Assembly (NCBI GenBank): GCA_027451865.1
Contig: DAIDHW010000005.1
Location: 64,001 to 128,000, forward strand
Length of the DNA: 64,000 nt
From: Leptolyngbyaceae cyanobacterium clean351
GTDB lineage: Bacteria; Cyanobacteriota; Cyanobacteriia; DAIDHW01
Direction of reading: 5' to 3'
Under the pieces are notes generated by a model. That model saw only the letters and a list, made by a program, of their open reading frames with translations. It made no database searches and was not told where the DNA came from. This document shows, piece by piece, positions 7,584-57,111 of this stretch (its first letter is position 1; every line of letters starts with the position of its first letter). The translations under genes were made by a program, and so were the position numbers.

Positions 7584-8960
7584 TTAAGCAGCCCTAGCCA
7601 AATCCCCCCGGTGCAAGGTCTTCACCCACTTCAAGCGCTTCGGCCGCACCGACATCCTTAAGGTCACGCTAGCCACCACCACTAGCCAGTGCATCATGTA
7701 GAAGGTCCCCCAGAGGGTCTGGAGGGTGGTCCGCCCCGGGGACTGGTGGGGATAGAGACGGCGCAGACCTAAAAACATCCCCACCAGGGAAATGGTGACC
7801 GTGACGCTGGTGAGGGGGATGAGAACTGGCAACCGATTGCGCGTTAAGGAAAAGAGCAAGTCTGGTACTGCCGCCGTCGGCAAGCCGTACTTAATTAACC
7901 AAAAAACCAACAGGTCCACACTCTTGCGCCACTGCCAACGCTGGCGCACTAGGGGCTGCCAGTAGTCCAGATAACTCTGGGCTCCCCCTTCCGCCCAACG
8001 GTTGCGCTGATGCCACAGGGCCATGACACCGGTAACCCCCTCCTCCTGGACCCGGGGCTGGGACAAAAAGTCAATGTCCCACTGGTCGAGGTGGAGGCGC
8101 AGGGTCAGGTCTAGGTCGTCGGTGATCGTTTCCTCATTCCAGCCCCCACAGCGCTCTAGGGCCACTCGGCGTACAAACTGACCATTGCCGCGCAGTTCAC
8201 CAATGCCCCCGGCCAGGATCCGCTGCCGTTGGAAAAAGGCATCCAAAGCCATCTCCGCTGACTGGCCCTGGGTAAGCAGATTTTTGGGGGCGTTGGCGAT
8301 GGCCTTGCTCACCTGAACCGCCCCTACCTGGGGACAATCAAAGAGGGGGACCACCTGCCGCAGCAGATCCGGGGTCACTTGGGCATCCGCATCAAAGACC
8401 GCAATAATCTCGCCGCGGGTCAAGGGCAAGACCTGGTTAAGGGCTCCGGACTTCCCCCCGGTAGACCCCTGAGGCCGGCACAGTACCTGTAGTTGAGGAT
8501 ACTTAGCGCACATCTGCTGCAAAATCTCCGGAGTGCGGTCAGTACTGCAATCATCTACCACCCACAATTCATAGCCCTCTGGGGGATAATCCAGGTGACA
8601 GAAGCTTTCCACCAGCTCACCAATCACCGCCTCTTCGTCCTTGGCAGCCACCAACAGGGATACGGAAGGCAGACTCCCAGGGGGGACATGGACCAGACCC
8701 CGGTCCCGCCGCCAAAGGATGCGCAGACCGTGTACCCCCACACAGGCAGCCAACCCCATCACCAACCAGCTCCCCCAGACCGAAAAATGCAAAACTAGGG
8801 TGCCACCCCAGACGCACCCCAGGAAAACCGCTGCCTTAAAGCGGCGCCGGGCATAGTTATGGGGGGGAAACAAGGGGGGCGGGGTCAAATCCGTCAGGGA
8901 ACTCTCCAACTCCTCAAGCTCGCCGCAGGAATCGTTTTCGGGCCAGGAATTCACTGACAT
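7584..8960 (-). CDS. mgdA: beta-monoglucosyldiacylglycerol synthase (GT2, MgdA-like)
   Basis: In cyanobacteria this enzyme transfers glucose from UDP-glucose to diacylglycerol, the first step toward the thylakoid galactolipids. The 458-residue sequence resembles the family from its first residues (NSWPENDS). It has two early membrane segments (about 45-85), then a processive-type GT2 catalytic domain: VVDDCSTD near 132, DADAQ near 187, ITDDLDL near 280 and the QRNRW acceptor/processivity motif near 317. Two or three C-terminal membrane segments follow. Its start lies inside the upstream radical SAM gene (47-bp overlap), and dnaA begins 23 bases after its stop. Assignment as MgdA rather than another membrane GT2 rests on remembered similarity to Synechocystis Sll1377. 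Confidence 0.88.
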
Positions 8961-9891
8961 AGGTCACTTGATTTAAGAACCAGTACTGGTCGATCCCCTT
9001 AAAAAAGCTTGGGATTAGGTAGCACCAGACAGTACACCCTTCGCAGACAGACAGCTTGCCCTGGTCTCGCCGATACTCATCGACCACTGGGGACTGGCGG
9101 TAGATATCGTACAACCTACCAGCGATCGGCAGACCAGTCTGGGCGAAGTGGTAACAGGGAAGGAGGAGCTTGTCGTCCGGAGAGATGGCAATGACTGCAT
9201 CTACAGCTTTGCAGCGAGGATTAGCGACGTCATTACCGCCCGCTTCAATAAATTTGAGTGCTGCTTTATTGTAGCCCACGTTGGAGAACTTTTTAGCCGT
9301 GGCCCGGATGGCCCCGACGATCTCTGGGGTAGGGTTTTTGCGGGAGTTGTAGTTCTGGTGGGCAGTAAAAGCCGGGTTAAGCCAAACCCTCGCCCCGAGG
9401 CGATGTCCGAGCTCTGCCACTTCCCCGATACGCTCGTAATTCTGGGCTGTCACCGTGTGGTTAAGGACCGGATACTCTCCCAGGGAGATGGCAAGAGCCA
9501 CAGACTCTACTAGGGTGTCGAAAATTCTCACCCCCCGAGACTGGTCATGGGTCTCCGAGTCAGGACCATCCAAGGAAAAGTTCAGAAAGTCTACCAGACC
9601 TTGCATCGCCCTAGCCCGCTTCGGGTAAAGGATGGTATTGGTGGTCATGCTGGTGAAAAATCCTTGGCGCTTTGCTTCGGTGTAAATCTCGGCCACATCC
9701 GGGCGCAGGAGAGGTTCTCCGCCAGTGAAATCCACGTACTTTACCCCCAGACGGCGCAGGTCTACCAGGTTTCGGGTAATGGTGGCAAGATCCGCTTCCT
9801 GGGGTGGTTCCAAGGCCCAGATGTCGCAAAAGTGACAACGGGCATTGCAGCGGTAGGTCAAGTAGTAGTTGGCAACCAGGGGGATCGTCAT
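8914..9891 (-). CDS. radical SAM protein with C-terminal SPASM-like cysteines
   Basis: A 325-residue radical SAM enzyme of unknown substrate. Cys15, Cys19 and Cys22 (CNARCHFC) form the CxxxCxxC cluster motif, followed by DFTGGEPLLRPDV (the GGE motif that contacts SAM) and NFSLDGPDSETHD. The C-terminal third carries further cysteines (near NPRCKAVDAV, LLLPCYHF and CEGCTVWC) that could bind a second iron-sulphur cluster, as in SPASM or twitch domains. No signal peptide or membrane segment is visible. The last 47 bp overlap the start of mgdA, so the two are probably translated together. This suggests, without proving, a role tied to membrane lipid or sugar chemistry. HpnH-type and MoaA-type identities were considered; the N-terminus fits neither well. 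Confidence 0.85.
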   Translation of the reverse strand: MTIPLVANYYLTYRCNARCHFCDIWALEPPQEADLATITRNLVDLRRLGVKYVDFTGGEPLLRPDVAEIYTEAKRQGFFTSMTTNTILYPKRARAMQGLVDFLNFSLDGPDSETHDQSRGVRIFDTLVESVALAISLGEYPVLNHTVTAQNYERIGEVAELGHRLGARVWLNPAFTAHQNYNSRKNPTPEIVGAIRATAKKFSNVGYNKAALKFIEAGGNDVANPRCKAVDAVIAISPDDKLLLPCYHFAQTGLPIAGRLYDIYRQSPVVDEYRRDQGKLSVCEGCTVWCYLIPSFFKGIDQYWFLNQVTYVSEFLARKRFLRRA

Positions 9892-14956: not shown

Positions 14957-15715
14957 TTACTGCCAAGATAAGCAATCGCGCCACTGGCATGCCGGAGAGT
15001 TTTTAGTCGCGCGATGCCAACGCATACACGCCGAGAATCCTGTAACTAGTAATGGTAGCGGCAAGAGTTTTAAGGACTGATACTGGGCAAAAGTAATGGC
15101 GATTCGGTGTGTCAAGGTAGCCACTAAATCTGTCTGCGCCAGGAGGGAGGGAGACACTAGGAAATGGGGAACAAAAAGAGCCACATGCCGTTTCAGATTT
15201 TCCTTGGCAAGCAGCGCATCCACTCGCCCGATACGGTCTTCCTTCACCGCAACAAGCAGATGAAGCACAGCAAAGTACTCTTCCAGGGAAAGGGGGCTAT
15301 CGATTAAGGGATGACCCCGGCGGCAGACGCAAACATAGCTTTCCTGAAGCAACCTTTGTTCCTTATGCTCTTTAACTTTCTCAGGGAAGACCCCACAGAC
15401 CAAGTCGATTTCGCCACTGTCTAGCAGCGCCAGCAACCTATGACGCTCCCCGGGGAACAAGGGTTAGAGAGTCTGGACTAACCGGGGCAACAGGGTGAAG
15501 CCGCCAAAATCTGACATGCCAATGGCAAAGACGCGGTCACTGGTAGCAGGATCAAAAATAGACCGCTCCCAAAGGGCCACCTGAATTTGGAGCAGAACAG
15601 GGGGACAACTGTTCCTAAAGCGCAACCGCAGTGGGGGTGGGGCGCAGACCACTGGCAGTGCGAATAAACAGATCATCTTTGATTAAGAGCCGTGCCAGAG
15701 CATTACTAGTTTGGC
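14957..15715 (-). pseudogene. LysR-family transcriptional regulator, decayed
   Basis: Pieces of one LysR regulator remain on the minus strand. A fragment of the helix-turn-helix end (NALARLL, then DLFIRTASGLRPTPTA) runs to a TAG at 15615-15617. The frame then changes, and the linker and first part of the substrate domain follow (TSDRVFAIGMSDFGGFTLLPRL). A TAA at 15464-15466 interrupts it. The rest of the effector domain continues in the same frame (LLDSGEIDLVCGVFPEK, LLVTGFSACMRWH). The first 35-40 residues of the DNA-binding domain are missing: homology stops about ten bases from the start of the divergent reductase relic. At least two stops, one frameshift and an N-terminal deletion make it non-functional. 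Confidence 0.88.
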
Positions 15716-18295: not shown

Positions 18296-19447
18296 CTACT
18301 CCTCCACCACCATGCCACCGCGACCGATCCACAGCCAACGCCCCCGCCACCATACCCGGTGACCAAAACAGCCCTGGAGCCAAACCACAAAACTCAAAGC
18401 CTCCCGCAAGGGCAGCAGCCAAAACCAGCTAGTCAAGCCGCGGCTGTCTAGATATATCGTCGCCATCAGAGCTTGGAGCAGGCGTATTCCCCAAGACCCC
18501 AAGGCCACTAGGACCGCCCAGGGGGCAAAGCCAGTCACCAGCACTAGGAGCAGGCTGTACAGGGGACCATGACAAAAGAGCATGCCATAAAATTGGCTGC
18601 CGCGGTTGTTGCGAATGGTCCGCGCCCACCGCAGCTCCCGCCGGTAAACCTGAGCTAGGGTCTCCCGAGGCTCATCATTATCCAGAATGTAGCTTGAGAG
18701 CTCAACCTGGTAGCCAGACTTGACTGCTAGGTTACCAATATCGTAATCAGACCCAATCCGGTTAACGATCCTACCGAGGCCACCTAGGTCCTGGAGCACC
18801 GGCTTACGGGTAACGATGGTGGCCCCCAGGGCAAAGGACATCCCCCCATCCAAGGCCCTAGCCACCAGAACACTGGGGAAAAAGTCCACACAGCGCCCCA
18901 GGGAGGCCATGGCTGAGCCAATAGATAGGGGATACTTGCCCACGTAGCCACAGGTGACTACCCCGACCTGGGGATTAGCTAGGGGGGCAGTAACTGTAGC
19001 CAAGTAGTCCGATCCCACTCGCATGTCACTGTCGCAAAAGACCACCGTCTCGTGGGCAGCTGCCTTGACCAGGTGGATCAGGTTGCTGACCTGGTGGTTG
19101 ATACCGTAGACCTCCTGACACAGCACCAACCGCGCCCGGGGCTGCCGACTTAGGAGGACCCGTAGCAGCGGGACCGCCGAGTCCTCCGGGTCCATCACCC
19201 CAAACACCACCTCGTAGTCCGGATAGTTCTGGTTGCAAAAAGAGCTCCAGTTAGCCATCGCCTTTTCTTCAGCACCGCAGACGGGAATGAGGATGGAAAC
19301 TGGCTCTGAGTAACTAGTGCTAGCAGACTGCTGATGGGAGCGGAAAAAAGAGACCGTCACCGCCGCACAGGTAAGGTGGAAGACCGCGGCAGTCAGGATT
19401 AAAAAACACAGTAAAGCCGGGATAATTAGGAGGAAATTAGTCAGCAA
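18296..19447 (-). CDS. GT21 ceramide-glucosyltransferase-like glycosyltransferase, HpnI-like
   Basis: A membrane glycosyltransferase of the ceramide glucosyltransferase family. In hopanoid producers, HpnI of this family adds N-acetylglucosamine to bacteriohopanetetrol. After an N-terminal membrane segment come VSILIPVCGAEEKAMANW, FCNQNYPDYEVVFGVMDPEDS, VFCDSDMRVGSDYL (metal-binding DxD-like), VGVVTCGYVG and the acceptor motif YRRELRWARTIR ((Q/R)xxRW). Two to three C-terminal membrane segments follow. The open frame extends to 19687, inside the divergent radical SAM gene. I place the start at TTG 19447 (383 residues) because the upstream 80 residues look non-coding; this start is uncertain. 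The hopanoid link is inferred from family resemblance and from the divergent HpnP candidate. Confidence 0.72.
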   Translation of the reverse strand: MLTNFLLIIPALLCFLILTAAVFHLTCAAVTVSFFRSHQQSASTSYSEPVSILIPVCGAEEKAMANWSSFCNQNYPDYEVVFGVMDPEDSAVPLLRVLLSRQPRARLVLCQEVYGINHQVSNLIHLVKAAAHETVVFCDSDMRVGSDYLATVTAPLANPQVGVVTCGYVGKYPLSIGSAMASLGRCVDFFPSVLVARALDGGMSFALGATIVTRKPVLQDLGGLGRIVNRIGSDYDIGNLAVKSGYQVELSSYILDNDEPRETLAQVYRRELRWARTIRNNRGSQFYGMLFCHGPLYSLLLVLVTGFAPWAVLVALGSWGIRLLQALMATIYLDSRGLTSWFWLLPLREALSFVVWLQGCFGHRVWWRGRWLWIGRGGMVVEE

Positions 19448-19507
19448 AACTTGCCATTTGAGCAGTACAAGGCATACCCTGTAAGCATAACATGCCCCGC
19501 TTAACCG

Positions 19508-21157
19508 ATGACAAACCAAGACTTTGAACAGCCGACACCCGAAATGGCCGGGGCTCATGTTCCCTACGTACCCCGGAACCGGCGCCGCGTCCTTTGTGTT
19601 TTCCCGGAGTACAGCAAGTCTTTTGGCACCTTCCACCATGCCTACCCCCTGATGGGTAGGAAGGTCAAAGCATTTATGCCCCCCCAAGGCATCCTGTTAG
19701 TGGCAGCCTATCTACCTGCCCAGTGGGAAGTCCGCTTTGTGGATGAAAATATTTGCCGTGCTACGCCCCAAGAATACCAATGGGCCGACGTGGTGGTTAT
19801 CAGTGGTATGCACATCCAGCGTCCCCACATCAACCGCATCAACGACATCGCCCATGCCCACGGCAAAATCACCTGGCTGGGGGGTCCCTCCGTCTCCGGT
19901 TGTCCTGAGTATTACCCCACCGTAGACCTACTGCACCTGGGGGAGATCGGGGATGCCACCGACCAGATTATTGAGTACCTAGACACTCACGACCACCGCC
20001 CCGCCACCCAACTGCGCTTCACTACTAAACACCGGCTGCCCCTGAGCGCCTTCCCGGTGCCGGCCTACCATCTGGTAGACATGGACCAGTACCTGATGGC
20101 CAGTATCCAGTTTTCTAGCGGCTGCCCCTACCGGTGTGAATTCTGCGACATCCCCGAACTGTACGGCCGCAACCCCCGTCTGAAGACTCCTGACCAGGTA
20201 GTGGCAGAGCTAGACGCGATCCGCCAGGCCGGAAACGTGGGGGCCGTTTATTTCGTGGATGACAACTTCGTTGGCAACCGGCGGGCTGTTACTGACCTGC
20301 TACCACACCTAGTCGAGTGGCAAAAACGTCATGGCTACCCTCTGGAGTTTGCCTGTGAAGCTACCTTAAACCTAGCTCAAAGTCCCAAGCTCCTTGAAAT
20401 GATGCGGGAGGCCTACTTCACGACCGTCTTCTGCGGCATTGAAACCCCCAACCCCGAAGCCCTCCATGCCATGTCCAAGGATCAGAACCTCAGTTTGCCG
20501 ATCCTGGAGGGAGTAAGGACCCTTAATCGCTACGGCATGGAAGTGGTTTCCGGCATTATCCTCGGCCTGGATACGGATACCCCAGAGACTGCCGACCACA
20601 TCCTAGAGTTCATTGAGCAGTCCCAGATCCCCATGCTCACCATCAACGTCCTCCAGGCCCTGCCCCGCACCCCCCTCTGGCGGCGCTTGGAGCTGGAGGG
20701 TCGCCTGGTCCAGGATGATGAAGGCCGAGAATCCAACGTTGACTTCTTGCTCCCCTACGACCAGGTGATCAGCATGTGGCGCCGGTGTATCACCACCGCC
20801 TACACCCCAGAAAACCTCTACCGCCGCTTTGCCTACAATGTCGACCACACCTACAAAAACCGCCTGGAGATCGACGCCTCCGGGCGCCTCACTTGGGCAA
20901 ACGTCGCCAAGGGGCTAACCATACTGGCCAATATTCTGGTAAGGGTAGGGGTATTCAGCAACTACCGCCGCACCTTTTGGCGGATGGCGGTCCCAGCCCT
21001 GAAGGCTGGAAGTATCGAACAGGTGATCCACATAGGTATGGTAGCCCACCACCTAATTAAGTTCACCGAGGAGTGTGCCCGGGGACAAGAGTCCGCCTCC
21101 TTCTACTCCCAGAAATTGGTGGCGGAGCCGGCGCCAGTACCGTCTTTATCCCGATGA
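19508..21157 (+). CDS. hpnP: hopanoid C-2 methylase candidate (B12-binding radical SAM, HpnP)
   Basis: HpnP methylates hopanoids at C-2, giving 2-methylhopanoids, whose fossil products are used as biomarkers. The 549-residue protein has an N-terminal cobalamin-binding domain (PPQGILLVAAYLP, VRFVDENI, VISGMHIQRPHI, GGPSVSGCPEYYP). The radical SAM motif CPYRCEFC lies at about residues 206-213 inside SSGCPYRCEFCDIPELYGRN, followed by VYFVDDNFVGN, FCGIETP and GLDTDTPET. The C-terminal DUF4070-type region contains LLPYDQVISMW and VDHTYKNRLE. These blocks match my memory of Rhodopseudomonas HpnP closely and in order. A related DUF4070 enzyme with another substrate remains possible. It is divergent from the GT21 gene and 41 bp upstream of the polysaccharide export gene. 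Confidence 0.78.
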   Translation: MTNQDFEQPTPEMAGAHVPYVPRNRRRVLCVFPEYSKSFGTFHHAYPLMGRKVKAFMPPQGILLVAAYLPAQWEVRFVDENICRATPQEYQWADVVVISGMHIQRPHINRINDIAHAHGKITWLGGPSVSGCPEYYPTVDLLHLGEIGDATDQIIEYLDTHDHRPATQLRFTTKHRLPLSAFPVPAYHLVDMDQYLMASIQFSSGCPYRCEFCDIPELYGRNPRLKTPDQVVAELDAIRQAGNVGAVYFVDDNFVGNRRAVTDLLPHLVEWQKRHGYPLEFACEATLNLAQSPKLLEMMREAYFTTVFCGIETPNPEALHAMSKDQNLSLPILEGVRTLNRYGMEVVSGIILGLDTDTPETADHILEFIEQSQIPMLTINVLQALPRTPLWRRLELEGRLVQDDEGRESNVDFLLPYDQVISMWRRCITTAYTPENLYRRFAYNVDHTYKNRLEIDASGRLTWANVAKGLTILANILVRVGVFSNYRRTFWRMAVPALKAGSIEQVIHIGMVAHHLIKFTEECARGQESASFYSQKLVAEPAPVPSLSR

Positions 21158-21198: not shown

Positions 21199-22344
21199 AT
21201 GCCTAATTGTCAGCAGGCTCTTGCGCGTATGCTGAGTGGTCTGTCACGCGTCCTACTGGGAGTGGGTATCCTGGGGGCGAGTATTGTCTGTGTGCTGGGC
21301 GGTACTATTCAACCCCTATGGGCGGCCCCCCTTTCCCCCGGAGATACCATCAGAGTTGTCGTTAACCCTGATGGTAGTGACTTTAGTGGCCTGTACCTAG
21401 TTGGCCCGGACGGCAACCTAGACCTCCCCTACCTGCCTCCCTTACCGGCAGCCGGAGAGGAGGCAAGCCAGGTTCAGGCAGACCTAGCCCAACTGCTAGT
21501 AAACCAACAGTTATTCCGGGCCGGCCAACTCCAGGTAGCGGTCACTGTGGTCCGCTGGGCACCGATCCGGGTAGCAGTAGCTGGGGCAGTATTTTATCCT
21601 GGCCAAGTCCTAATTAACGAGCCCTCTAGTACCCAGGGTCAGTACCAGACCCTCCCGCCACCTAGTCAGGTGAGTGGCGCCTACGCCAGTGACCGCTACC
21701 TAACAGCGGCCATTCTGGCGGCGGGGGGAGTTACCCCCTACGCCGACGTGCATCACATCGAGCTAATTCGGGCTGGCCACATTAAGACCTTTGACCTGTC
21801 TGGGGCCTTCACTGGCCAGCCCGTGCCTCAGGTCCCCCTAGAGGCAAGGGATCAAATCTTCGTTCCTACCCTCAATACCTTTCAAGATGACCTGGTGCGC
21901 CCCTCGGACATCACCCTGTCAGGAGTGAGGGTATTTCTGTCTAACTTAACGGTCCCAGCCACTAGTAACTCCGGCTCCGCCATCAATGCCCAGTCCACCG
22001 GCTTTAGCTACGGGTCCCGGTTTTCCCAGGCGGTGGTATCGGCCAACTGTACAGGAGGCACTCCGGGAACTAACGCTGGCCGGCGGGCCGTCTTAGTGCA
22101 CACAGACCGCCTGACGGGCAAAATAACCTATACGGACCGCTCTATCCAAAGCTTGATCCACGACCACAAAGACGACGACACCGGCAATCCCTTCCTGATG
22201 GAGGGGGATGGGGTGGCCTGCTACGATTCCCGGGTATCCACCATCCGGGATGTCTTCCGGGCCCTAGGAGACATCCTCAATCCCTTCGATATTCTGCGCA
22301 ATATCATAACTCCCAACAGCTCTAATTCTGCCCCCCTCTTTTAG
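21199..22344 (+). CDS. polysaccharide export protein (Wza/SLBB family)
   Basis: An exported 381-residue protein of the polysaccharide biosynthesis/export family, expected to form or feed the outer-membrane channel for exopolysaccharide. A signal peptide covers about residues 10-43. The Poly_export domain follows (LSPGDTIRVVVNPDGSDFSG, YLVGPDGNLDLPYLPP), then an SLBB-like domain (IRVAVAGAVFYPGQV, LTAAILAAGGVTPYADV, VPLEARDQIFVPTL). I see no lipobox cysteine at the cleavage region. The C-terminal 150 residues are Ser/Asn-rich and unfamiliar. It starts the cluster with the Wzz-like gene six bases downstream. Confidence 0.87.
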   Translation: MPNCQQALARMLSGLSRVLLGVGILGASIVCVLGGTIQPLWAAPLSPGDTIRVVVNPDGSDFSGLYLVGPDGNLDLPYLPPLPAAGEEASQVQADLAQLLVNQQLFRAGQLQVAVTVVRWAPIRVAVAGAVFYPGQVLINEPSSTQGQYQTLPPPSQVSGAYASDRYLTAAILAAGGVTPYADVHHIELIRAGHIKTFDLSGAFTGQPVPQVPLEARDQIFVPTLNTFQDDLVRPSDITLSGVRVFLSNLTVPATSNSGSAINAQSTGFSYGSRFSQAVVSANCTGGTPGTNAGRRAVLVHTDRLTGKITYTDRSIQSLIHDHKDDDTGNPFLMEGDGVACYDSRVSTIRDVFRALGDILNPFDILRNIITPNSSNSAPLF

Positions 22345-22350
22345 ATAGAC

Positions 22351-23751
22351 ATGGCGATGATCACCGACTCCTCCTCCTTATCCTTACCCCGAGGCAAGTC
22401 CAAAGCTCACACTTTTCCAGGCCGCTATATCCTGGTGCTTGCCCTAGTAAACTTAGGGATTTGGGGGGCGAGCCTCGTGTACCTACGCCTAACTAAACCC
22501 ACTTATATCAGTCAGTGGGCCCTGATTCTACCCGGCTCAGATGCGGGGATTAACCTAAGCCTGCCAACTATCGGCCAGGCTACCTCCTCCGGCAGCTCTC
22601 CCTTCGGATCTATTGGCAATGACCCCCGGGCCAACTATGAGTACATCGCCCTTAGCGACCCAGTCCTGAAAACTGCCGCTAGGACCATGGGGATGACCGC
22701 GAAGGAATTCGGTAAGCCCCGGGCCAATCTGGTAGATAACACCACCATCTTGCAGTTTCAGATGAGTGGGCGCAGTCCCCAGGAAGCCCAGCGAAAAGCC
22801 TATGCCCTCTACCATGTGCTGATGGACAAGCTAGGGGAGCTGCGCACGGAGGATGTGGCCCAGCAGGATGAGTCTACTCGTTCTACATTGAGTATGGTAC
22901 GGGGGAAACTAGAGGCAGCCCAACAGCAGTTGTCCAACTTTGAAGCCAGCTCCGGCCTCAGTGATGTCGGAGAGCTGCAAAACCTATCGGTCAATATTGA
23001 ACAGATCCGGCGGCAACAGGTGGAAGTCAAAGCTCAACAGCAGCAAAATGCCCGCCAGCTGACCCAACTGTCAGCCACCCTCGGGATATCCCCCCAGGAA
23101 GCGGCAGATGCCTTCACCCTCCAGGCCGATCAAATCTTTCAGCAAAACCTCAAGGACTACAGTGATGCCAACGCCAGACTTACAGTCCTACTCTCGCGCC
23201 TAGGTCCTCGTCATCCCCAAGTGTTAACGGAGCAGGCCAAGGAACAAGCCGCCCTAGCCGCGGTTCAGCGGCGATCGCAACTCCTGCTCGGTAAGCCCAT
23301 TTCTACCCGGGAACTAGACTTGCTTGAGCTAACCAACGGCAACAGCACTTCGGCCCGGGAGGGTTTATTTGCCAACCTGATTGCCACTCAGGCTAACACT
23401 GAAGGCTTGACGGTCCAGGCCCAAAGTCTGGGCAACCAGCTAGAGAGCCTTGAAGACCGCCTATCCCGCCTAGCAGTGGAGGAGTCAAAACTCGAGAGCC
23501 TCAGCCGGGCTGTCCAGATTGACCAGGCCGTGTTTGCCTCCACCCTAGCTAAGTTAGACCTGGGAAAAACTAGCGTTTTTGTCTCCTACCCGCTGGTGCA
23601 ACTGATCAGCAAGCCCACCCTCCCCGATAAGCCCAGCTGGCCCAAGCCCCTGTGGGTGCTGGGGGGTACCTTGATCGGTTCGGTCTTGGTTACGGCTGGA
23701 GTGGTCCTCCTGCGGACCCGGCAGCTGCGGCAACAACAACCCCAAACCTAA
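22351..23751 (+). CDS. Wzz/GumC-like polysaccharide chain-length protein
   Basis: A 466-residue polysaccharide co-polymerase-like protein, expected to control chain length or couple polymerisation to export. It has one membrane segment near residues 25-47 (YILVLALVNLGIWGASLVYL) and another near 430-452. Between them lies a long periplasmic helical region with coiled-coil character (residues about 170-240 and 345-400, rich in Gln, Glu and Ala). The Pro-rich stretch before the second membrane segment (KPTLPDKPSWPKPLW) is typical of the family. No C-terminal tyrosine kinase domain is fused. The stop overlaps the next gene's ATG (TAATG). The window's only HIP1 palindrome I saw (23271-23278) is inside this gene. 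Confidence 0.88.
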   Translation: MAMITDSSSLSLPRGKSKAHTFPGRYILVLALVNLGIWGASLVYLRLTKPTYISQWALILPGSDAGINLSLPTIGQATSSGSSPFGSIGNDPRANYEYIALSDPVLKTAARTMGMTAKEFGKPRANLVDNTTILQFQMSGRSPQEAQRKAYALYHVLMDKLGELRTEDVAQQDESTRSTLSMVRGKLEAAQQQLSNFEASSGLSDVGELQNLSVNIEQIRRQQVEVKAQQQQNARQLTQLSATLGISPQEAADAFTLQADQIFQQNLKDYSDANARLTVLLSRLGPRHPQVLTEQAKEQAALAAVQRRSQLLLGKPISTRELDLLELTNGNSTSAREGLFANLIATQANTEGLTVQAQSLGNQLESLEDRLSRLAVEESKLESLSRAVQIDQAVFASTLAKLDLGKTSVFVSYPLVQLISKPTLPDKPSWPKPLWVLGGTLIGSVLVTAGVVLLRTRQLRQQQPQT

Positions 23752-25046
23752 TGCAACCCAAAAACCCAGAGGAGACCTTGGTGTGGGGAGCCCTGGTGGG
23801 AACCTACCTTTTCTGGCTCCTCGGGGCTCTCTACATCGTTGGCTCAGCCATTGGCTGGCTGTTACTAGGGGTGTGGTGTAGTCGGTGGTGGCGGGAATCC
23901 TCAACTACCCCGGCCGCAGAACGGCTGCGCTGGCCTTGGGTAGTATGGCCCTGGATCCTGGGAATGATCACCATGGAGGTAGCCCTGATTATTGCCCACA
24001 TTCACTTCGATCTAGGCTTGGGGTCCCTGATCAAGTCCTCTGTTGGCTGGGCCAAGGGGTGGGCCCTCCTGGCGGTATTCGCCATGGTGGGCGGATTGAA
24101 AGTCCGTCCCACCTTGATCTACCGGGCAGCCTGCATCATTTGTCTGGGCAGCTTGATATTCTATCCCCTCTGTGTGGTCGGTCATACCATTCACCTGCCT
24201 CGCATCCTCTACGTTTCCCCCCTCCAAGCGGTAGGAGGCCCGGGCCCGGAATTTTTTGATGTTTCCCTGTACGAGATTGACCCGGATAGTGGTAGTCTGC
24301 GCTATCGTTTGTTTGCCCCTTGGGGACCAGCCCTGGGGTTAATGGGAGACATATACTTCTTCTTTGCCTGGCAAGAAACTAACCGCTTTTGGCGGTGGGT
24401 GGGGGTCATTGGCAGCTTACTGATGTGCTGGGTATCCGCATCGCGGCTGGCAATTCTAGCCGTACCGACCGTGGCGGTCATCACCTGGCTGCTCCTGAAC
24501 TGGCAGCGGCCATTCGTGCTTATTAGCCTGGGTGTCAGCATCTTCCTCGGCAGTGTGTCTGCTGCCTCGGTCACCCAGGAAGTTCAGCTACTCGAGCAGG
24601 ACTTCACCAAGGTGCGGCCCTCCTCTTCCCTCGTGCGTCAGTACCTCGGAGAGATTGCCCTCTACCGCTGGTGGCACGAAGCCCCGGTGTGGGGCCACGG
24701 GGTGGTAGGTAATGGCCCCCACTTGGTTGAATTTATGCCCATTGGTTCCCACCAAACCTGGTTCGGTTTGCTTTTTATCAAGGGATTCGTTGGTGCCGTC
24801 TCCCTAGCTGTGCCTATGTTCTGCAGTTTCTTGGTGATGCTCACCGGAGCAGGAAAAACACAAACCGGGCCGGTAGCCCTAACCATGCTGGTGATCTTGT
24901 TTCTTTATACCTTTGCAGAAAACCTAGAAACCCTGGCCTACCTTTATTGGCCCGCCCTATTGATTCTCAGCATTGCTTTCCATGAGCAGTTACCCCGGAC
25001 ACCTCCCGACCCAGGGTATCAGGAGGACCGAGGGGGATTATCATAG
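23751..25046 (+). CDS. O-antigen ligase/polymerase-like membrane protein
   Basis: A 431-residue polytopic protein with about 10-12 membrane segments, resembling O-antigen ligase or Wzy-type polymerases. Conserved-looking features are the large periplasmic loop carrying RPSSSLVRQYLGEIAL and HEAPVWGHGVVGNGPH, plus PIGSHQTWFGLLF, comparable to the GHNxxL/HxHN segment of ligases. I chose ATG 23751 (MQPKNPEETLV), which overlaps the preceding TAA; an upstream in-frame start at 23652 would lie inside the Wzz-like gene. Its place between the chain-length gene and two GT2 genes supports a role in polysaccharide assembly. About 124 bp without a gene follow. Confidence 0.75.
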   Translation: MQPKNPEETLVWGALVGTYLFWLLGALYIVGSAIGWLLLGVWCSRWWRESSTTPAAERLRWPWVVWPWILGMITMEVALIIAHIHFDLGLGSLIKSSVGWAKGWALLAVFAMVGGLKVRPTLIYRAACIICLGSLIFYPLCVVGHTIHLPRILYVSPLQAVGGPGPEFFDVSLYEIDPDSGSLRYRLFAPWGPALGLMGDIYFFFAWQETNRFWRWVGVIGSLLMCWVSASRLAILAVPTVAVITWLLLNWQRPFVLISLGVSIFLGSVSAASVTQEVQLLEQDFTKVRPSSSLVRQYLGEIALYRWWHEAPVWGHGVVGNGPHLVEFMPIGSHQTWFGLLFIKGFVGAVSLAVPMFCSFLVMLTGAGKTQTGPVALTMLVILFLYTFAENLETLAYLYWPALLILSIAFHEQLPRTPPDPGYQEDRGGLS

Positions 25047-25170
25047 CTCTTATTCTCACCTATACGTGCTTGGGGAGAGATTAATAGTGTCCCTATTTTC
25101 CGGGTCTACCTCCGATGGTCTCCTCTCGGAGTATTATCTCTAGTGCTGCCCGGCAACTCACCGGAGTCCC

Positions 25171-26163
25171 ATGGAATCTTCTGTACCCCAACCCCAGGTT
25201 TCAGTGATTATTCCGGCCTACAATGCAGCCTCCTTTATTCTGAAGACTATTCACTCTGTACAGACCCAAACCTGGCGGGACTGGGAGCTGATCGTGGTTG
25301 ATGATGGCTCTACCGATGACACCCGGACCCTAGTTGGGGGTTTGCACGATGACAGAATCCGCCTTTTCACCTACCCGAACGGTGGCGTGTCCACAGCTCG
25401 TAACCGGGGGTTTGCCCACTCCCAGGGAAAATACATTGCCCTGTTAGATGCCGACGACCTCTGGAGTGCACAGAAGTTAGCCGACCAGGTCCAAGCAATG
25501 GAAAACCAACCCCAGGCAGGTCTTGCCTATAGCCAAGTCTGCCTGATGAACGCCCAGGGCAATCAATTTGCCCTGGTCCGCTGCCGTGAACTAGCCGGGA
25601 ATGTTTACGCCGAGATGCTCACCAGTCACTTTCTCCACACTGCCTCTAACATATTCCTGCGGCGTGAGGTGTGGGAAACCCTAGGGGGCTTTGATCCGGA
25701 ACTTTATCAGGGTGGGGATTGGGAATTTTGTGTGCGGGTGGCAGCCCAGTGGGACTTTATTTACATCCCTAAACCCCAGGTTTATTATCGCCAGCACCCC
25801 CGGTCCATTTCCTTTCAAGTTAAGACCGTAGAGCTATATAACCTGAAGGTCATTGATAAAGTCTTCCAGTCCTGCCCCGCCCATCTTCAGTTTCGCCAGG
25901 CCCACGCCAAGGCCAGCTGCTATCAAAACCTAGCGCGTCTATACTTGGCTCGGGCCACCAGGCGCTCGGAAGTTAATCAGGCCTGGAGTTTTCTCGTCAC
26001 AGCAGTCAAATTTCGCCCCGGGGTTCTAATTAACCGGGGGGTGATAATTGCTATATTTGAACTGTTATTCCTTACCATCTTCTCCGTCGCCCTGGGCAGG
26101 TCTTTGCTGAAATTGTGTTTCGCCAGATCTGTAGTGCGTAATGTTTCAGGCCTGGGAACGTAG
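25171..26163 (+). CDS. GT2 family glycosyltransferase (tandem copy 1)
   Basis: A 330-residue GT-A fold glycosyltransferase, probably adding a sugar to the lipid-linked polysaccharide unit. VSVIIPAYNAASFI starts the nucleotide-sugar domain. VVDDGSTDDT, NGGVSTARNRG and ALLDADDLW (DxD) follow. The segment where many relatives have ED reads GGDWEFCVRVA here, so the Glu of the usual pair is Gly. A hydrophobic segment lies near the C-terminus (about 285-308), suggesting membrane association. It is three bases upstream of a close paralogue. Confidence 0.9.
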   Translation: MESSVPQPQVSVIIPAYNAASFILKTIHSVQTQTWRDWELIVVDDGSTDDTRTLVGGLHDDRIRLFTYPNGGVSTARNRGFAHSQGKYIALLDADDLWSAQKLADQVQAMENQPQAGLAYSQVCLMNAQGNQFALVRCRELAGNVYAEMLTSHFLHTASNIFLRREVWETLGGFDPELYQGGDWEFCVRVAAQWDFIYIPKPQVYYRQHPRSISFQVKTVELYNLKVIDKVFQSCPAHLQFRQAHAKASCYQNLARLYLARATRRSEVNQAWSFLVTAVKFRPGVLINRGVIIAIFELLFLTIFSVALGRSLLKLCFARSVVRNVSGLGT

Positions 26164-26166
26164 GCT

Positions 26167-27162
26167 ATGTCGTCTGCTGATGCACCTTTGGTGTCTGTGA
26201 TTATGCCGGTCTACAATGGGGCCGCATACATCTTGGAAACAATTCAATCCGTCCAAAAGCAGAACCTCCAGGACTGGGAGTTAGTGATCGTTGATGACGG
26301 TTCTACCGACAACACCCCAGCCCTCCTTGCCAGGCTGAGTGACCCGCGGATCCGGGTTTTTGTTTATCCTAACGGCGGCGTTTCCACAGCCCGTAATCGT
26401 GGTTTTAGCCACTCCCGAGGGCAATTCATCGCCCTGCTAGATGCTGATGACCTGTGGACTCCCGACAAGCTATCTGACCAGGTGTGGGCTCTTCAACAAT
26501 CACCTGCTAATCAGTTGGCCTACAGTCGCACCTACCTCATGAATGAAAGTGGCAAGCAAGTTGCCCTGGTCCGTTCCCCGCGTCTGCCCCAGGGGGATGT
26601 ATACCGCCTGTTGCTCACCCGCAATTTTATTATCAGCATCGGCTCTAACATCCTTGTCCGCCGCCAAGCCTGGGAGGAAGCAGGTGGTTTTGACCCCAAC
26701 CTAACCCAGGGGGAGGACTGGGAATTTTGCTGCCGAATTGCGGCCCGGGGAGACCTGGTGGCGGTGGCTAAGCCCCAGGTCTACTACCGGCAGCACGGCC
26801 ACTCTGCCTCCTATCAGCTGCAGCTCCTAGAGCGAGCAACCCTAGCCACCATCGATAAGATGTTCCAAGGGGCCCCCTCCCAGTTCCAAACCCTTAAGGG
26901 TAAAGCTCAGGCCAACGCTTACCAGACCATCACCCGTTTACACTTGGCCCAGGCCCGTACTAAGGCCCAGGTAAGGCAGAGCTGGCGGTACCTGGGAACT
27001 TCTCTGATCCGGGATCCTAGAATGTTACTGAGTCTGAGCACTTGGGTGTTATTTTGCACCATAATCGTGTTCACAGTCCTGCCCCTAGACTCAGCCCGTT
27101 TCCTGCTCGGAAGAGTCCAGAAAACCTTTTCTGCCCGTAGCCTCTCCCGCGAGAGCCCCTAG
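26167..27162 (+). CDS. GT2 family glycosyltransferase (tandem copy 2)
   Basis: A 331-residue paralogue of the preceding gene. The same blocks occur in order: VSVIMPVYNGAAYILETIQS, VDDGSTDNTPALLA, NGGVSTARNRGFSHSRG, ALLDADDLW and GGFDPNLTQGEDWEF, here with the usual GED. VYYRQHGHSASYQLQ matches VYYRQHPRSISFQVK of the first copy. A hydrophobic C-terminal segment (about 290-312) is kept. Similarity is strongest in the N-terminal half. The arrangement indicates a tandem duplication followed by divergence, possibly giving two successive sugar transfers. The ABC ATPase gene starts three bases after its stop. Confidence 0.9.
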   Translation: MSSADAPLVSVIMPVYNGAAYILETIQSVQKQNLQDWELVIVDDGSTDNTPALLARLSDPRIRVFVYPNGGVSTARNRGFSHSRGQFIALLDADDLWTPDKLSDQVWALQQSPANQLAYSRTYLMNESGKQVALVRSPRLPQGDVYRLLLTRNFIISIGSNILVRRQAWEEAGGFDPNLTQGEDWEFCCRIAARGDLVAVAKPQVYYRQHGHSASYQLQLLERATLATIDKMFQGAPSQFQTLKGKAQANAYQTITRLHLAQARTKAQVRQSWRYLGTSLIRDPRMLLSLSTWVLFCTIIVFTVLPLDSARFLLGRVQKTFSARSLSRESP

Positions 27163-52023: not shown

Positions 52024-54940
52024 ATGACTTACTCCTTCAGTGAGCAGCACAAGCCGCGGGTACCAGGCCAGATCGTCCGGCTCCGGACTCGCTACCACCT
52101 GGTAAAGAATATTTAAACTACTCCTGAGGGACCTCAATTGCACCTGGCTTGCCTAGAGGATGACGCCCTCGGGGAGCCCCTAGACGTCTTTTGGCAGCGG
52201 GAGTTAGACCGACAGATAGTCAGGCAGCGAGAGCCCTGGAAGCTGGAGACGAACCAGGGTCTTGACCGGCCGGAGTTACTTGCTGCCCACCTGCACACCC
52301 TGCGCTGGAACTGCGTCACCTCCACCCGGCCAGACCTGCTTCAAGCTCCCTACCGCGCCGGAATTGAGATCAGAAACTACCAGCTAGAACCCCTGCGGCG
52401 AGCCTTAAGCATGCCTCGGGTAGCCCTGTCCATCGCCGATGACGTGGGCCTTGGGAAGACTATTGAAGCGGGTTTGATTCTCCAGGAGTTAAAGTTGCGC
52501 CAGAAAATTCGCCGAGGGCTAATCTGTTGTCCCGCTAGTGTGGTGCTCCAGTCGCGAGAGGAGATGGAAAACCGCTTTGGGGTCTCATTGACGATTTTTG
52601 CCCGGGAGTTTGCGCACCAGGAGAAGGTCAATCAGGGCCACAACACTAATCCCTGAACTACCCAGTCTTGGTTTATCACTTCTCATACCCTCCTGGGCAA
52701 GGAAGAATACAAAGTCCCCCTGCTCAATCACCTGCAAGAGTTTGCGGCCGAGACGATTTTAATCCTAGACGAGGCCCACCAAGGGACCCCGGCGGGCAAC
52801 GGTAGTTACGCGATAGATTCGGAGCTCACCAAGACCCTCCGTCAGGTAGTGCCCCGCTTTGAACACAAGGTCTTCCTCTCCGCTACCCCCCACAACGGCT
52901 ACTCCAATAGCTTTACGGCCCTCTTAGAACTCCTAGACCCCCAACGCTTTTGTCGGGGGGTTACCATCCAGTCCACGCAACAACTGCGCTCGGTCCTGGT
53001 GCGTCGCCTTAAGCGGGACCTCCTCAGTCTAGGGGATAGTTTTCCGGAACGGCGGGTAGTCTCCATCCCCCTGGAAGTCCCCGACGACGCCCCAGAGCTG
53101 AGGCCATCGGACCTCCTAGGGCAATATCGCCGCCTGCGGGAGAACCCTAGGGGAGGCTTCTGCCCGGGAGCAGGCGGCACGACCTGGTAATCACCTGCCT
53201 CTAAAAACGCCTCCTCCCCTCCATCGAGGCTTTTTACCGGACCCTCCAGGTACACCGGCACACCCACCAGACTGTCGAGTCCAGTGCCTGGGCAGTCCGA
53301 GCTATTGATTATGTGCCGGACCTTGATCAGGGGGAGGTAGACCTGTCCGAGGCGGAGGCCATGGAGCAAGCCGACACCCAAATTCAAGCTGCCTCCCGCC
53401 AGCTGCCAACCCTCAGACCCCTAGAACTGCAACTTCTAGGGCAGATGGAGGAGGTAGCCGGGTTAGCCCGTCACCTCAGTGACCCCCGGGTAGAGTACCT
53501 CAAGGGCTGGATTCGTCAGCACCAGCGTCCTCAGGTGGGGACAGCGGGGGCACCCCGGGGGCGCACGCGAGTGATCATCTTCACTGAGTACTCGGATACT
53601 AAAGAATACCTGCAGTACCACCTAGAGCGCTTCATTGAGGGCTCAGACCAATCGCCGTAGCGGATCGCCAAATTTGATGGTGCCCTCGACCCGCAGCAGC
53701 GCAAGACCCTCAAGGACACCTTCAACGCCGACCCTGAACATCATCCCCTACGGGTCTTGATTGCCACCGATGCCGCCCGGGAGGGAATCAATCTCCAAAA
53801 CCACTGTGCCGATCTGTTCCACTTCGATCTACCCTGGAACCCCAGCCGCCTTGAGCAGCGCAACGGTCGGATTGACCGCAAGCTTCAACAGGCCAAGGTG
53901 GTCCGCTGCCACTACTTTGTCATTCCCAAGCGCCCAGAAGACCGGGTCTTAGACACCCTAGTGCGCAAAAGTGACGCTATCTACCGAGACCTGGGAAGCT
54001 TGCCCCTGGTGGTGGTCGACCAGATGAGACAATGCCTTGCCCAGGGCATTAACACCCCCGAGCAGCTAGTGGAAGCCATGGAGCTGATTGATGCCCCGGG
54101 CTCCCGGGGCCAAGAGGCGGCCACCATCTCAGGCCTGGCTGCAGTTTGACGAGCAGCACTTTCGCAGCACCCTCTCAGCTGGGTTGGGGTTGCTCGGGGT
54201 GTCTCCCCTGAAAGCGGATCCCCAGGTGCCGGGGCAGTGGATTATCCCAGATTTGGCAGAAACCCTAGGCCAGGACCCAGACTGAAACTACACCCTCAAG
54301 TCCCTGCGGGAACCTGACCTGTCCCCTACTGCTGCACCTAAATTTCGTCCCTTAGTCTTTGCCGACCCCAATTCCCTAGATAACCAGGTGGTCCATCTTT
54401 ATCTAGAACATTTATTGGTACAATGGCTGCTGGCTCAGTTTACGGTGCAAGGCTTTGTCAAGCACGAGCTTAGCCGTGTCTGCGTCTGCGTTACCGAAAA
54501 GGCAGTGGACTACGTGGTCTTCTGGGGCCGGGTGTCCCTCTATGGCCGGCAGGCTACCCGGCTGCACGACGAGTTATTTGCGGTGGCGGCCCCCTGGAAA
54601 CCTTATCCCCTCAGGGGTCAGCGGCCGCTCCGGCCCCTAGGACCCAAGGACCGCAACCTAGTGGGGGATTTGGAAAGGTCCTTGGCCGCGGGGGTGCCCC
54701 TGCCGGAAGGCAAGCAGGGTTTATTTCGCGACTCCCTGTCCCGGGATGCCCAGGACCCTTTGCCCTACCTAGAACAGGAGGCCAATCAGCTGATCGCCAA
54801 GACCACCAAGCAACTGACCATTCGCGGGGAGCGGGAGGCCAAGGTAAGGGGGCATCATCACTGCACAAATCGAGAATATTGAGGCATTGAGGCGCGGGTG
54901 CAGGAGTACGAAGCGGCAAGACTCAAGTCCAGTGGCATCC
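52024..54940 (+). pseudogene. DrmD-like SNF2 helicase of DISARM, heavily degraded
   Basis: Segments of one large helicase lie in order on the plus strand. N-terminus from ATG 52024 (PGQIVRLRTRYHLVKNI), TAA at 52114, then LHLACLEDDALGEPLDVFW, LHTLRWNCVTSTRPDL, Walker A DDVGLGKTIEAGLIL, TGA at 52654, the DEAH-type LILDEAHQGTP, and FLSATPHNGYSNSF. Frameshifts at about 53130-53180 and a TAA at 53202 precede the second helicase half with VIIFTEYSDTKEYL. After TAG 53658 come LIATDAAREGINLQNHC and EQRNGRIDRKLQQ. A frameshift near 54130, TGA at 54283, the C-terminal domain (GRVSLYGRQATRLHDEL) and a last shift near 54850 follow. The order and text match DrmD. No other DISARM gene is present. Confidence 0.88.
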
Positions 54941-55009: not shown

Positions 55010-55966
55010 CTAGGCGCGCCAGTAACCGTTCTCTATCAGAAAGGCCCGGAGGGCAGCGGGGAAGGAACCATACTTGATTTCCCTGGTAGTGCATTTTCCC
55101 TGGTCATCGTACTTGTCCCCCTCACAGGTCTCCAACCCCCAGTCTGAACTGCGGTCGTAATCCTTGAGCATCACCTGCCAGGCAGCCTTCTGTTCCCGGG
55201 CCCCCAGGAGAGAAGCAGTGCCAACGTACCCAGCTAAAAGTCCGTTGATTTCCGGGGTGTTATCCTTATCCGCCGCTGCCGCCTGAACCGCCTGGTCGTA
55301 CTGGATCAGAGACTCATAGACTAGGGGGTGAAAGCGGGGTTGCCGGGTGACATCCTGGACTTGGTAGCCGTAGAGTTGGTAAACCAAGGGAGGGGCTGCA
55401 CTGCCGGCGTAGGAACTAAAGGCGTACAAAAACCGGTTATCCTCATCGACAAACTTGTAGACTCCCTCATGGTCAGGGTCGCTCACTTCGTGGGGAACCC
55501 CATTGAACAAGCCCACATCCACCCTGTGCCAGGTACTACCATCAGAACTGCTAGTGGCAATGTGGACCTCATTACAGCAGTGGGCACCACCAGTGAAACT
55601 AGAAAATACTACCTCTGGATAGGGGTTGCTCCGGTCCAACTCACCAATTTGCACCAAGATATTCTTGGAGATAACCTGGGAAGCCTGCAGCTGCAGAACC
55701 AACTTACCATCAACTAACACCTGCAGCTGGGGTACCTGCAGGGGCAAGGGCCCCGATTGACCAATAGTTAGGACCTTGAGGGCAGCACTGACGTGACCCT
55801 GGCTAATTGACCCAGTAGTTCGCCCAGAGTTGGGACCAAGTCTGAGAGTAGCCAGGGGCGACGGCATCCTAGCCCAAGCCACGCTAGCCATGGTCAAAAC
55901 CAGCAGAGCCACCAGAAACCTAATCCCGAATTGGCGGCCGAGACTGCGGAGGGAGGGGGCGTCCAT
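55010..55966 (-). CDS. secreted hypothetical protein, tandem copy A
   Basis: A 318-residue exported protein of unknown function. The signal peptide covers about residues 14-33 (FLVALLVLTMASVAWA). The mature part has a beta-rich N-terminal region, then a strongly conserved block with VVFSSFTGGAHCCNEVH (adjacent cysteines) and DPDHEGVYKFVDEDNRFLY. It ends with a Cys pair (LETCEGDKYDDQGKC). The end YGSFPAALRAFLIENGYW is shared with copy B. No catalytic motif is recognised. It lies between the DrmD relic and its paralogue. Confidence 0.85.
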   Translation of the reverse strand: MDAPSLRSLGRQFGIRFLVALLVLTMASVAWARMPSPLATLRLGPNSGRTTGSISQGHVSAALKVLTIGQSGPLPLQVPQLQVLVDGKLVLQLQASQVISKNILVQIGELDRSNPYPEVVFSSFTGGAHCCNEVHIATSSSDGSTWHRVDVGLFNGVPHEVSDPDHEGVYKFVDEDNRFLYAFSSYAGSAAPPLVYQLYGYQVQDVTRQPRFHPLVYESLIQYDQAVQAAAADKDNTPEINGLLAGYVGTASLLGAREQKAAWQVMLKDYDRSSDWGLETCEGDKYDDQGKCTTREIKYGSFPAALRAFLIENGYWRA

Positions 55967-56142: not shown

Positions 56143-57111
56143 CTAGGCACGCCAGTAGCCCTTCTCAATCAGAAAGACCCGGAGAGCAGCGGGGAAGGAA
56201 CCATACTTGATTTCCTTGGTAGTGCATTTTCCCTGGTCATCGTACTTGTCCCCCTGACAGGCCTCTAGCCCCCAGTCTGAACTGCGGTCATCATCCTTGA
56301 GCATCACCTGCCAGGCAGCCTTCTGTTCCCGAATCCCCAGGAGGGAGGCAGTGCCAACGTACCCAGCTAAAAGCCCGTTGATTTCCGGGGCATCATCACC
56401 TTTGACTTTATTCCTTTCGGCAACTACTTCCCGGATCGCCTGGCCGTACTGGGCCAAGGACTTGTAGACTAGGGGATGAAAGCGGGGTTGCCGGGTGACA
56501 TCCTGGACTTGGCGGCCGTAGAGTTGGTAGACCAAGGGAGGAGCCGCACTGCCGGCGTAGGAGCTAAAGGCGTACAAAAACCGGTTATCCACATCAACAA
56601 ACTTGTAGACTCCCTCATGGTCAGGGTCGCTCACCTCGTGGGGAACCCCATCAAACAGGCCCACATCTACCTGGTGCCAGGTGCTGCCATCAGGACTGCT
56701 AGTAGCAAAGTGAACCTCGTTACAGCAGTGGGCACCACCGGTGAAACTAGAAAACACTACCTCTGGGTAGGGGTTGCTCCGGTCCAACTCACCAATTTGC
56801 ACCAACACATCCTTGACATTAGTACTCCCAGCCTGCAGGTGCAAAACCGGCTTACCGTGAACTAACACCTGCAACTGGGGCAGAAGCAATTGTATTTCCT
56901 GGTCAGTAACCGGTGTGACACTCAGATGGGCCGTCACCGGTCCTCGACTAACTAGACCGGTGGTTTGTTTATCGTCAACGCTCAGACTGAGGGTAGCTAG
57001 GGGAGATGCGGCCACAGCCCAAGCCAGTCTGGCAACTACCAAAGCCAGCAGCAGTGCCGCCAGGAACCTGGTGATAAACCGCCGGCCTAGGACAAGAGGA
57101 TGTGCATCCAT
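56143..57111 (-). CDS. secreted hypothetical protein, tandem copy B
   Basis: A 322-residue paralogue of copy A, 176 bp upstream of it on the same strand. It has a signal peptide at about 14-34 (FLAALLLALVVARLAWA). From about residue 105 on, nearly every residue matches copy A (VVFSSFTGGAHCCNEVH, DPDHEGVYKFVD, VQDVTRQPRFHPLVY), with a four-residue insertion around NKVKGDDAPEINGLL. The first 100 residues are much more different. Cysteines of the C-terminal pair are kept (LEACQGDKYDDQGKC). Function unknown. Confidence 0.85.
   Translation of the reverse strand: MDAHPLVLGRRFITRFLAALLLALVVARLAWAVAASPLATLSLSVDDKQTTGLVSRGPVTAHLSVTPVTDQEIQLLLPQLQVLVHGKPVLHLQAGSTNVKDVLVQIGELDRSNPYPEVVFSSFTGGAHCCNEVHFATSSPDGSTWHQVDVGLFDGVPHEVSDPDHEGVYKFVDVDNRFLYAFSSYAGSAAPPLVYQLYGRQVQDVTRQPRFHPLVYKSLAQYGQAIREVVAERNKVKGDDAPEINGLLAGYVGTASLLGIREQKAAWQVMLKDDDRSSDWGLEACQGDKYDDQGKCTTKEIKYGSFPAALRVFLIEKGYWRA

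Follow-up and report, generated by a model that had tools for sequence, protein, structure and literature searches.

The locus described here raises the question of whether two genes that stand back to back in a cyanobacterial genome, one for a B12-dependent radical SAM protein and one for a GT21 glycosyltransferase, both act on hopanoids, the sterol-like membrane lipids of bacteria whose fossils are taken as traces of early life. An earlier note on this DNA had seen in them an HpnP candidate and a GT21 enzyme like HpnI, possibly sharing a promoter region. Both open reading frames are present as described in the window, i.e. the whole 64,000-nucleotide stretch that was analysed (Table 1). We consider it likely, with good confidence, that the radical SAM gene is a genuine hpnP and that its divergent neighbour encodes a second, paralogous GT21 enzyme glycosylating hopanoids, which is not the HpnI of this genome.

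Table 1. Positions of the gene pair (numbered in the window) and of hopanoid genes on contig C1
Feature	Position	Strand	Basis
hpnP, very probable hopanoid C-2 methyltransferase (B12-dependent radical SAM), 549 aa	19508..21157	+	Pfam domains, HpnP-clade tree, shc co-occurrence, hpn neighbours of orthologs
Cobalamin (B12)-binding domain of HpnP, aa 49-150	19652..19957	+	PF02310, 36.1 bits vs cut-off 32.1
Radical SAM domain of HpnP, aa 200-369	20105..20614	+	PF04055, 71.9 bits
CxxxCxxC iron-sulfur motif, C206/C210/C213	20123..20146	+	invariant across 15 aligned orthologs
DUF4070 C-terminal domain of HpnP, aa 388-528	20669..21091	+	PF13282, 124.4 bits
Clade B GT21 glycosyltransferase, HpnI-related, putative hopanoid glycosyltransferase	18296..19447	-	probable TTG start 19447; ORF open to 19687
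Catalytic residues D169, D219 (CDSD), D314 (GSDY), RELRW (aa 350-354)	18626..19183	-	alignment
Intergenic gap, probable glycosyltransferase start to hpnP ATG, 60 bp; candidate shared promoter region	19448..19507	.	start-codon positions
shc	C1:634186-636069		887 bits vs cut-off 431
hpnH	C1:698278-699240		552 bits vs cut-off 225
hpnJ	C1:66112-67521		797 bits vs cut-off 578
hpnI (canonical)	C1:68468-69568		347 bits vs cut-off 310
hpnK	C1:509474-510280		264 bits vs cut-off 233

The radical SAM protein and the hopanoid pathway

The radical SAM reading frame opens with an ATG, and its product carries the B12-binding, radical SAM and DUF4070 domains in this order, each above its Pfam cut-off, with the iron-sulfur motif at the beginning of the segment CPYRCEFCDIPELYGRN (aa 206-222). 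Domains alone do not decide its identity, since the same three are found in HpnP and in several HpnP-like clades, and many cyanobacteria have one HpnP and one HpnP-like protein (Hoshino et al. 2023, PMC10697835). The NCBIfam profile search of the window protein gave no HpnP match, and the assignment is therefore based on the tree, on co-occurrence and on genomic context.

The alternative to be weighed is that the protein is an uncharacterised HpnP-like DUF4070 paralog without a hopanoid role. Such paralogs share the domain set, are common in the class and occur also in shc-negative genomes. Among 58 other genomes of the class, however, the window protein is 67-75% identical to orthologs in 19 and only 34-42% identical to a separate paralog group, with no full-length sequence in between. 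The earlier note had proposed a DUF4070 tree as a check, and in our tree of 95 proteins the window sequence falls within the HpnP clade, which is split from the paralogs at an SH-aLRT support of 99. This clade takes in Rokubacteria, Rhodospirillales, Methylobacterium (Alphaproteobacteria), Eremiobacterota and Acidobacteria, in agreement with the phyla published for HpnP, which supports the placement. Biochemically tested HpnP (Rhodopseudomonas palustris TIE-1) is outside the set of 95, so that the genus Methylobacterium is the closest anchor; one unrelated radical SAM protein in the tree (L045, an HpnJ-type neighbour) lies outside the clade on a very long branch. A scan of genome contigs gave 80 HpnP-clade loci, R. 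palustris not among them, and a plasmid search returned a Methylobacterium bullatum HpnP homolog with 58.8% identity, as well as annotated HpnI references.

Co-occurrence and context also speak against a paralog. An shc match was found in 50 of the 51 genomes with an HpnP ortholog, vs 97/194 class genomes overall, and the sole exception (G069) is 68% complete; these co-occurrence figures carry no correction for common descent. In 25 of the 80 named loci, a sample dominated by Nostocales, hpnI, hpnJ, hpnK, hpnH or a clade B glycosyltransferase gene (see below) lies within 6 kb of the HpnP gene, and the loci flanked in this way span Nostoc, Scytonema, Brasilonema, Calothrix, Tolypothrichaceae and others. 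Taken together, the paralog reading is largely refuted and retains a very small probability, and the open reading frame very probably encodes HpnP, adding one more ordinary representative to a known family and bearing out the candidate of the earlier note. By analogy with characterised HpnP, and given an identity derived from homology and context, the product would use cobalamin and S-adenosylmethionine to place a methyl group at C-2 of the hopanoid A-ring.

The rest of the pathway is found elsewhere in the genome, which is 2.48 Mb in size and 98.8% complete. As had been remarked before, the window itself has no recognised cyclase gene and no further recognised hpn gene; shc, hpnH, hpnI, hpnJ and hpnK are all on contig C1, the window being on C5. 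The absence of shc had been named beforehand as a finding that would overturn the proposal; both shc and hpnH are present above their cut-offs. For hpnG, the third gene to be looked for, a match exists in the genome, but it is weak (58 bits vs cut-off 187). HpnI, HpnK and HpnJ jointly lead to the bacteriohopanetetrol (BHT) cyclitol ether (PMC12583986), and we therefore predict BHT, BHT glucosamine and the cyclitol ether as products of the organism, with C-2 methylation. This cyanobacterium, whose closest relatives among the genomes compared are related at class level only, is thus probably able to make 2-methylhopanoids. 2-Methylhopanes in old rocks have been read as cyanobacterial markers, so that any lineage of cyanobacteria in which HpnP is well supported and the pathway complete bears on this reading.

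The divergent glycosyltransferase and clade B

The longest form of the glycosyltransferase reading frame overlaps the start of hpnP by 180 nt. Homology to HpnI begins at aa 88 of this frame, and the closest preceding start codon is the TTG adopted in Table 1. The protein matches the Pfam family Glyco_transf_21 well (118.3 bits vs cut-off 21.7), and its best NCBIfam model is HpnI, at 302.8 bits against the TIGR03472 equivalog cut-off of 310, which is not reached. The residues D169, D219, D314, R353 and W354 are conserved both in the clade of the window protein (clade B) and in cyanobacterial HpnI (clade A), and the residues of the window protein align with the D, CDSG, EDY and RMIRW of the ceramide glucosyltransferase 26qf.

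With the HpnI model as best match, with shared GT21 catalytic residues and with HpnK and HpnJ in the genome, the window protein might be HpnI itself, the enzyme of the cyclitol ether pathway by which bacteriohopanetetrol receives N-acetylglucosamine. We regard this as unlikely. In a tree of 41 proteins it belongs to the 17-member clade B (support 100/100), which is separate from clade A (98/95) and from proteobacterial HpnI; a ceramide glucosyltransferase (L170) included in a first tree was removed as a long branch. A canonical HpnI is encoded elsewhere in the genome, 0.9 kb from hpnJ; it falls in clade A and is 37% identical to the window protein. Mean identity is 51% within clade B and 61% within clade A, vs about 33% between them, and the HpnI cut-off divides the two (clade A at least 347 bits, clade B at most 308). 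Clade A HpnI occurs alongside HpnJ in 15/15 genomes, whereas HpnJ is missing from 42 of the 48 clade B genomes; the six with HpnJ compare with 7.4 expected among shc-bearing genomes, i.e. there is no link. HpnK was found in only 2/59 relatives. The description as a GT21 enzyme like HpnI thus holds as a resemblance, but the protein should not be named HpnI, since it belongs to a separate clade and the canonical HpnI is elsewhere in the genome. HpnJ and a clade A HpnI occur together with clade B in six genomes only (G007, G083, G094, G134, G141 and G000), and these would be useful for telling the functions of the two clades apart.

Clade B is nevertheless tied to hopanoids. It was found in 48 of the 194 class genomes, from 10 families, all 48 of which have an shc match (in G158 a fragment only), and in none of the 97 shc-negative genomes; the hypergeometric values for co-occurrence, about 1e-18, ignore shared ancestry and are indicative only. 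In four lineages (G162, G050, G158 and Argonema antarcticum) the clade B gene and hpnH are immediate neighbours with the same orientation, and in Calothrix sp. PCC 7716, Argonema and G134 the clade B gene is close to hpnP. A single conserved neighbourhood of clade B was ruled out, as the neighbours vary (hpnH in 3/20 genomes, hpnP in 1/20). HpnH catalyses the first step of side-chain addition, and since clade B adjoins its gene in those four lineages, a bacteriohopanepolyol is a natural choice of acceptor. Judging by the family, the catalytic residues and the hopanoid link, the enzyme would most likely use the GT21 mechanism known from ceramide glucosyltransferase and HpnI, taking a sugar from a nucleotide-sugar donor and attaching it to the polyol side chain of such a hopanoid.

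The window protein could also serve the adjacent exopolysaccharide genes or another lipid, as in the synthesis of a glycosyl-ceramide or glycosyl-diacylglycerol, its place beside hpnP being due to chance. Export and chain-length genes and two GT2 genes do follow at 21199-27162, and its nearest solved relative is a ceramide glucosyltransferase. The exopolysaccharide genes, however, run in the other direction and do not recur as neighbours of clade B, and the confinement of clade B to shc-bearing genomes in the set searched and its adjacency to hpnH in four lineages also speak against this; we consider this explanation more improbable still than identity with HpnI. A second bacteriohopanepolyol glycosyltransferase, distinct from HpnI and forming an uncharacterised branch, is the likely reading of clade B. 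Literature searches on cyanobacterial hopanoid glycosides yielded glucosamine and cyclitol-ether types and no enzyme matching clade B. Clade B may therefore be regarded as a candidate for the enzyme behind sugar-bearing hopanoids in cyanobacteria without the HpnI-HpnK-HpnJ pathway, and as an HpnJ-independent, hopanoid-linked GT21 clade it makes the glycosyltransferase a stronger lead than the HpnP.

Arrangement of the pair and its surroundings

The two genes are probably divergent, with start codons about 60 bp apart, a layout that would allow the shared promoter suggested in the earlier note, as a possibility only. One promoter-like match was found, at 19399-19426 on the + strand just inside the glycosyltransferase reading frame, which is not evidence of function. 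Adjacent hpnP and clade B genes occur in one of the 36 genomes with both, namely that of the window, the two being about 3 kb apart in G134. Among named loci, clade B is directly downstream of hpnP in Calothrix sp. PCC 7716 and 3 kb away in Argonema, and the divergent arrangement was seen in none of the other loci examined. It is tempting to speculate that clade B is a second cyanobacterial hopanoid glycosyltransferase making a glycoside outside the glucosamine and cyclitol-ether series, co-regulated here with C-2 methylation from a divergent promoter, but this fuller proposal is tentative and on balance doubtful. Downstream of hpnP, at a distance of 41 bp and in the same orientation, an exopolysaccharide export gene begins, and expression or co-transcription of hpnP with the exopolysaccharide cluster is therefore another possibility.

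This cluster, of exopolysaccharide type (21199-27162, + strand), comprises a Poly_export (Wza-like) gene, a GNVR/Wzz-like gene, a polytopic Wzy-like protein and two GT2 genes. A GT2-type glycosyltransferase gene and a radical SAM gene overlap by 47 bp at 7584-9891 (- strand) and are possibly a lipid-modification pair. At 14957-15460 (- strand) a LysR substrate-binding domain is encoded by a reading frame that leaves no room for a DNA-binding domain, so that a truncated regulator is probable. An SNF2/Helicase_C-like gene at 52138-54882 (+ strand) is split over separate short reading frames and looks broken or frameshifted, and two closely similar proteins are encoded in tandem at 55010-55966 and 56143-57111 (- strand), the first without a Pfam match.

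Comparison with known systems

The window HpnP resembles HpnP of the Rhodopseudomonas palustris TIE-1 type and cyanobacterial HpnP in its domain set, its CxxxCxxC motif, its clade placement and its co-occurrence with shc, and differs from cyanobacterial HpnP only in its neighbour, a divergent clade B gene here and hpnI, hpnJ or hpnK in many cyanobacteria. In many named cyanobacteria hpnP is clustered with hpnI, hpnJ and sometimes hpnK (L089, L095, L107, L121, L125, L126, L129, L135 and others), unlike in Alphaproteobacteria, where it usually stands apart from the remaining hopanoid genes (PMC12583986). From the cyanobacterial HpnP-like DUF4070 paralogs, which are alike in all three domains (PMC10697835), it is set apart by low identity and a separate clade.

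The glycosyltransferase, for its part, is of the same family as HpnI (the BHT N-acetylglucosaminyltransferase, TIGR03472, GT21) and shares its catalytic residues and a hopanoid context in the genome, but clade B has no link to HpnJ or HpnK, and the RxxRW motif is followed by NRG here and by an R-P motif in HpnI. The nearest solved relative is the GT21 ceramide glucosyltransferase (PDB 26qf), which it matches by profile over the full length (E 2.4e-50) and with which its catalytic residues align; unlike that enzyme, the window protein is bacterial and, in the set searched, confined to shc-bearing genomes, and a ceramide acceptor is not indicated.
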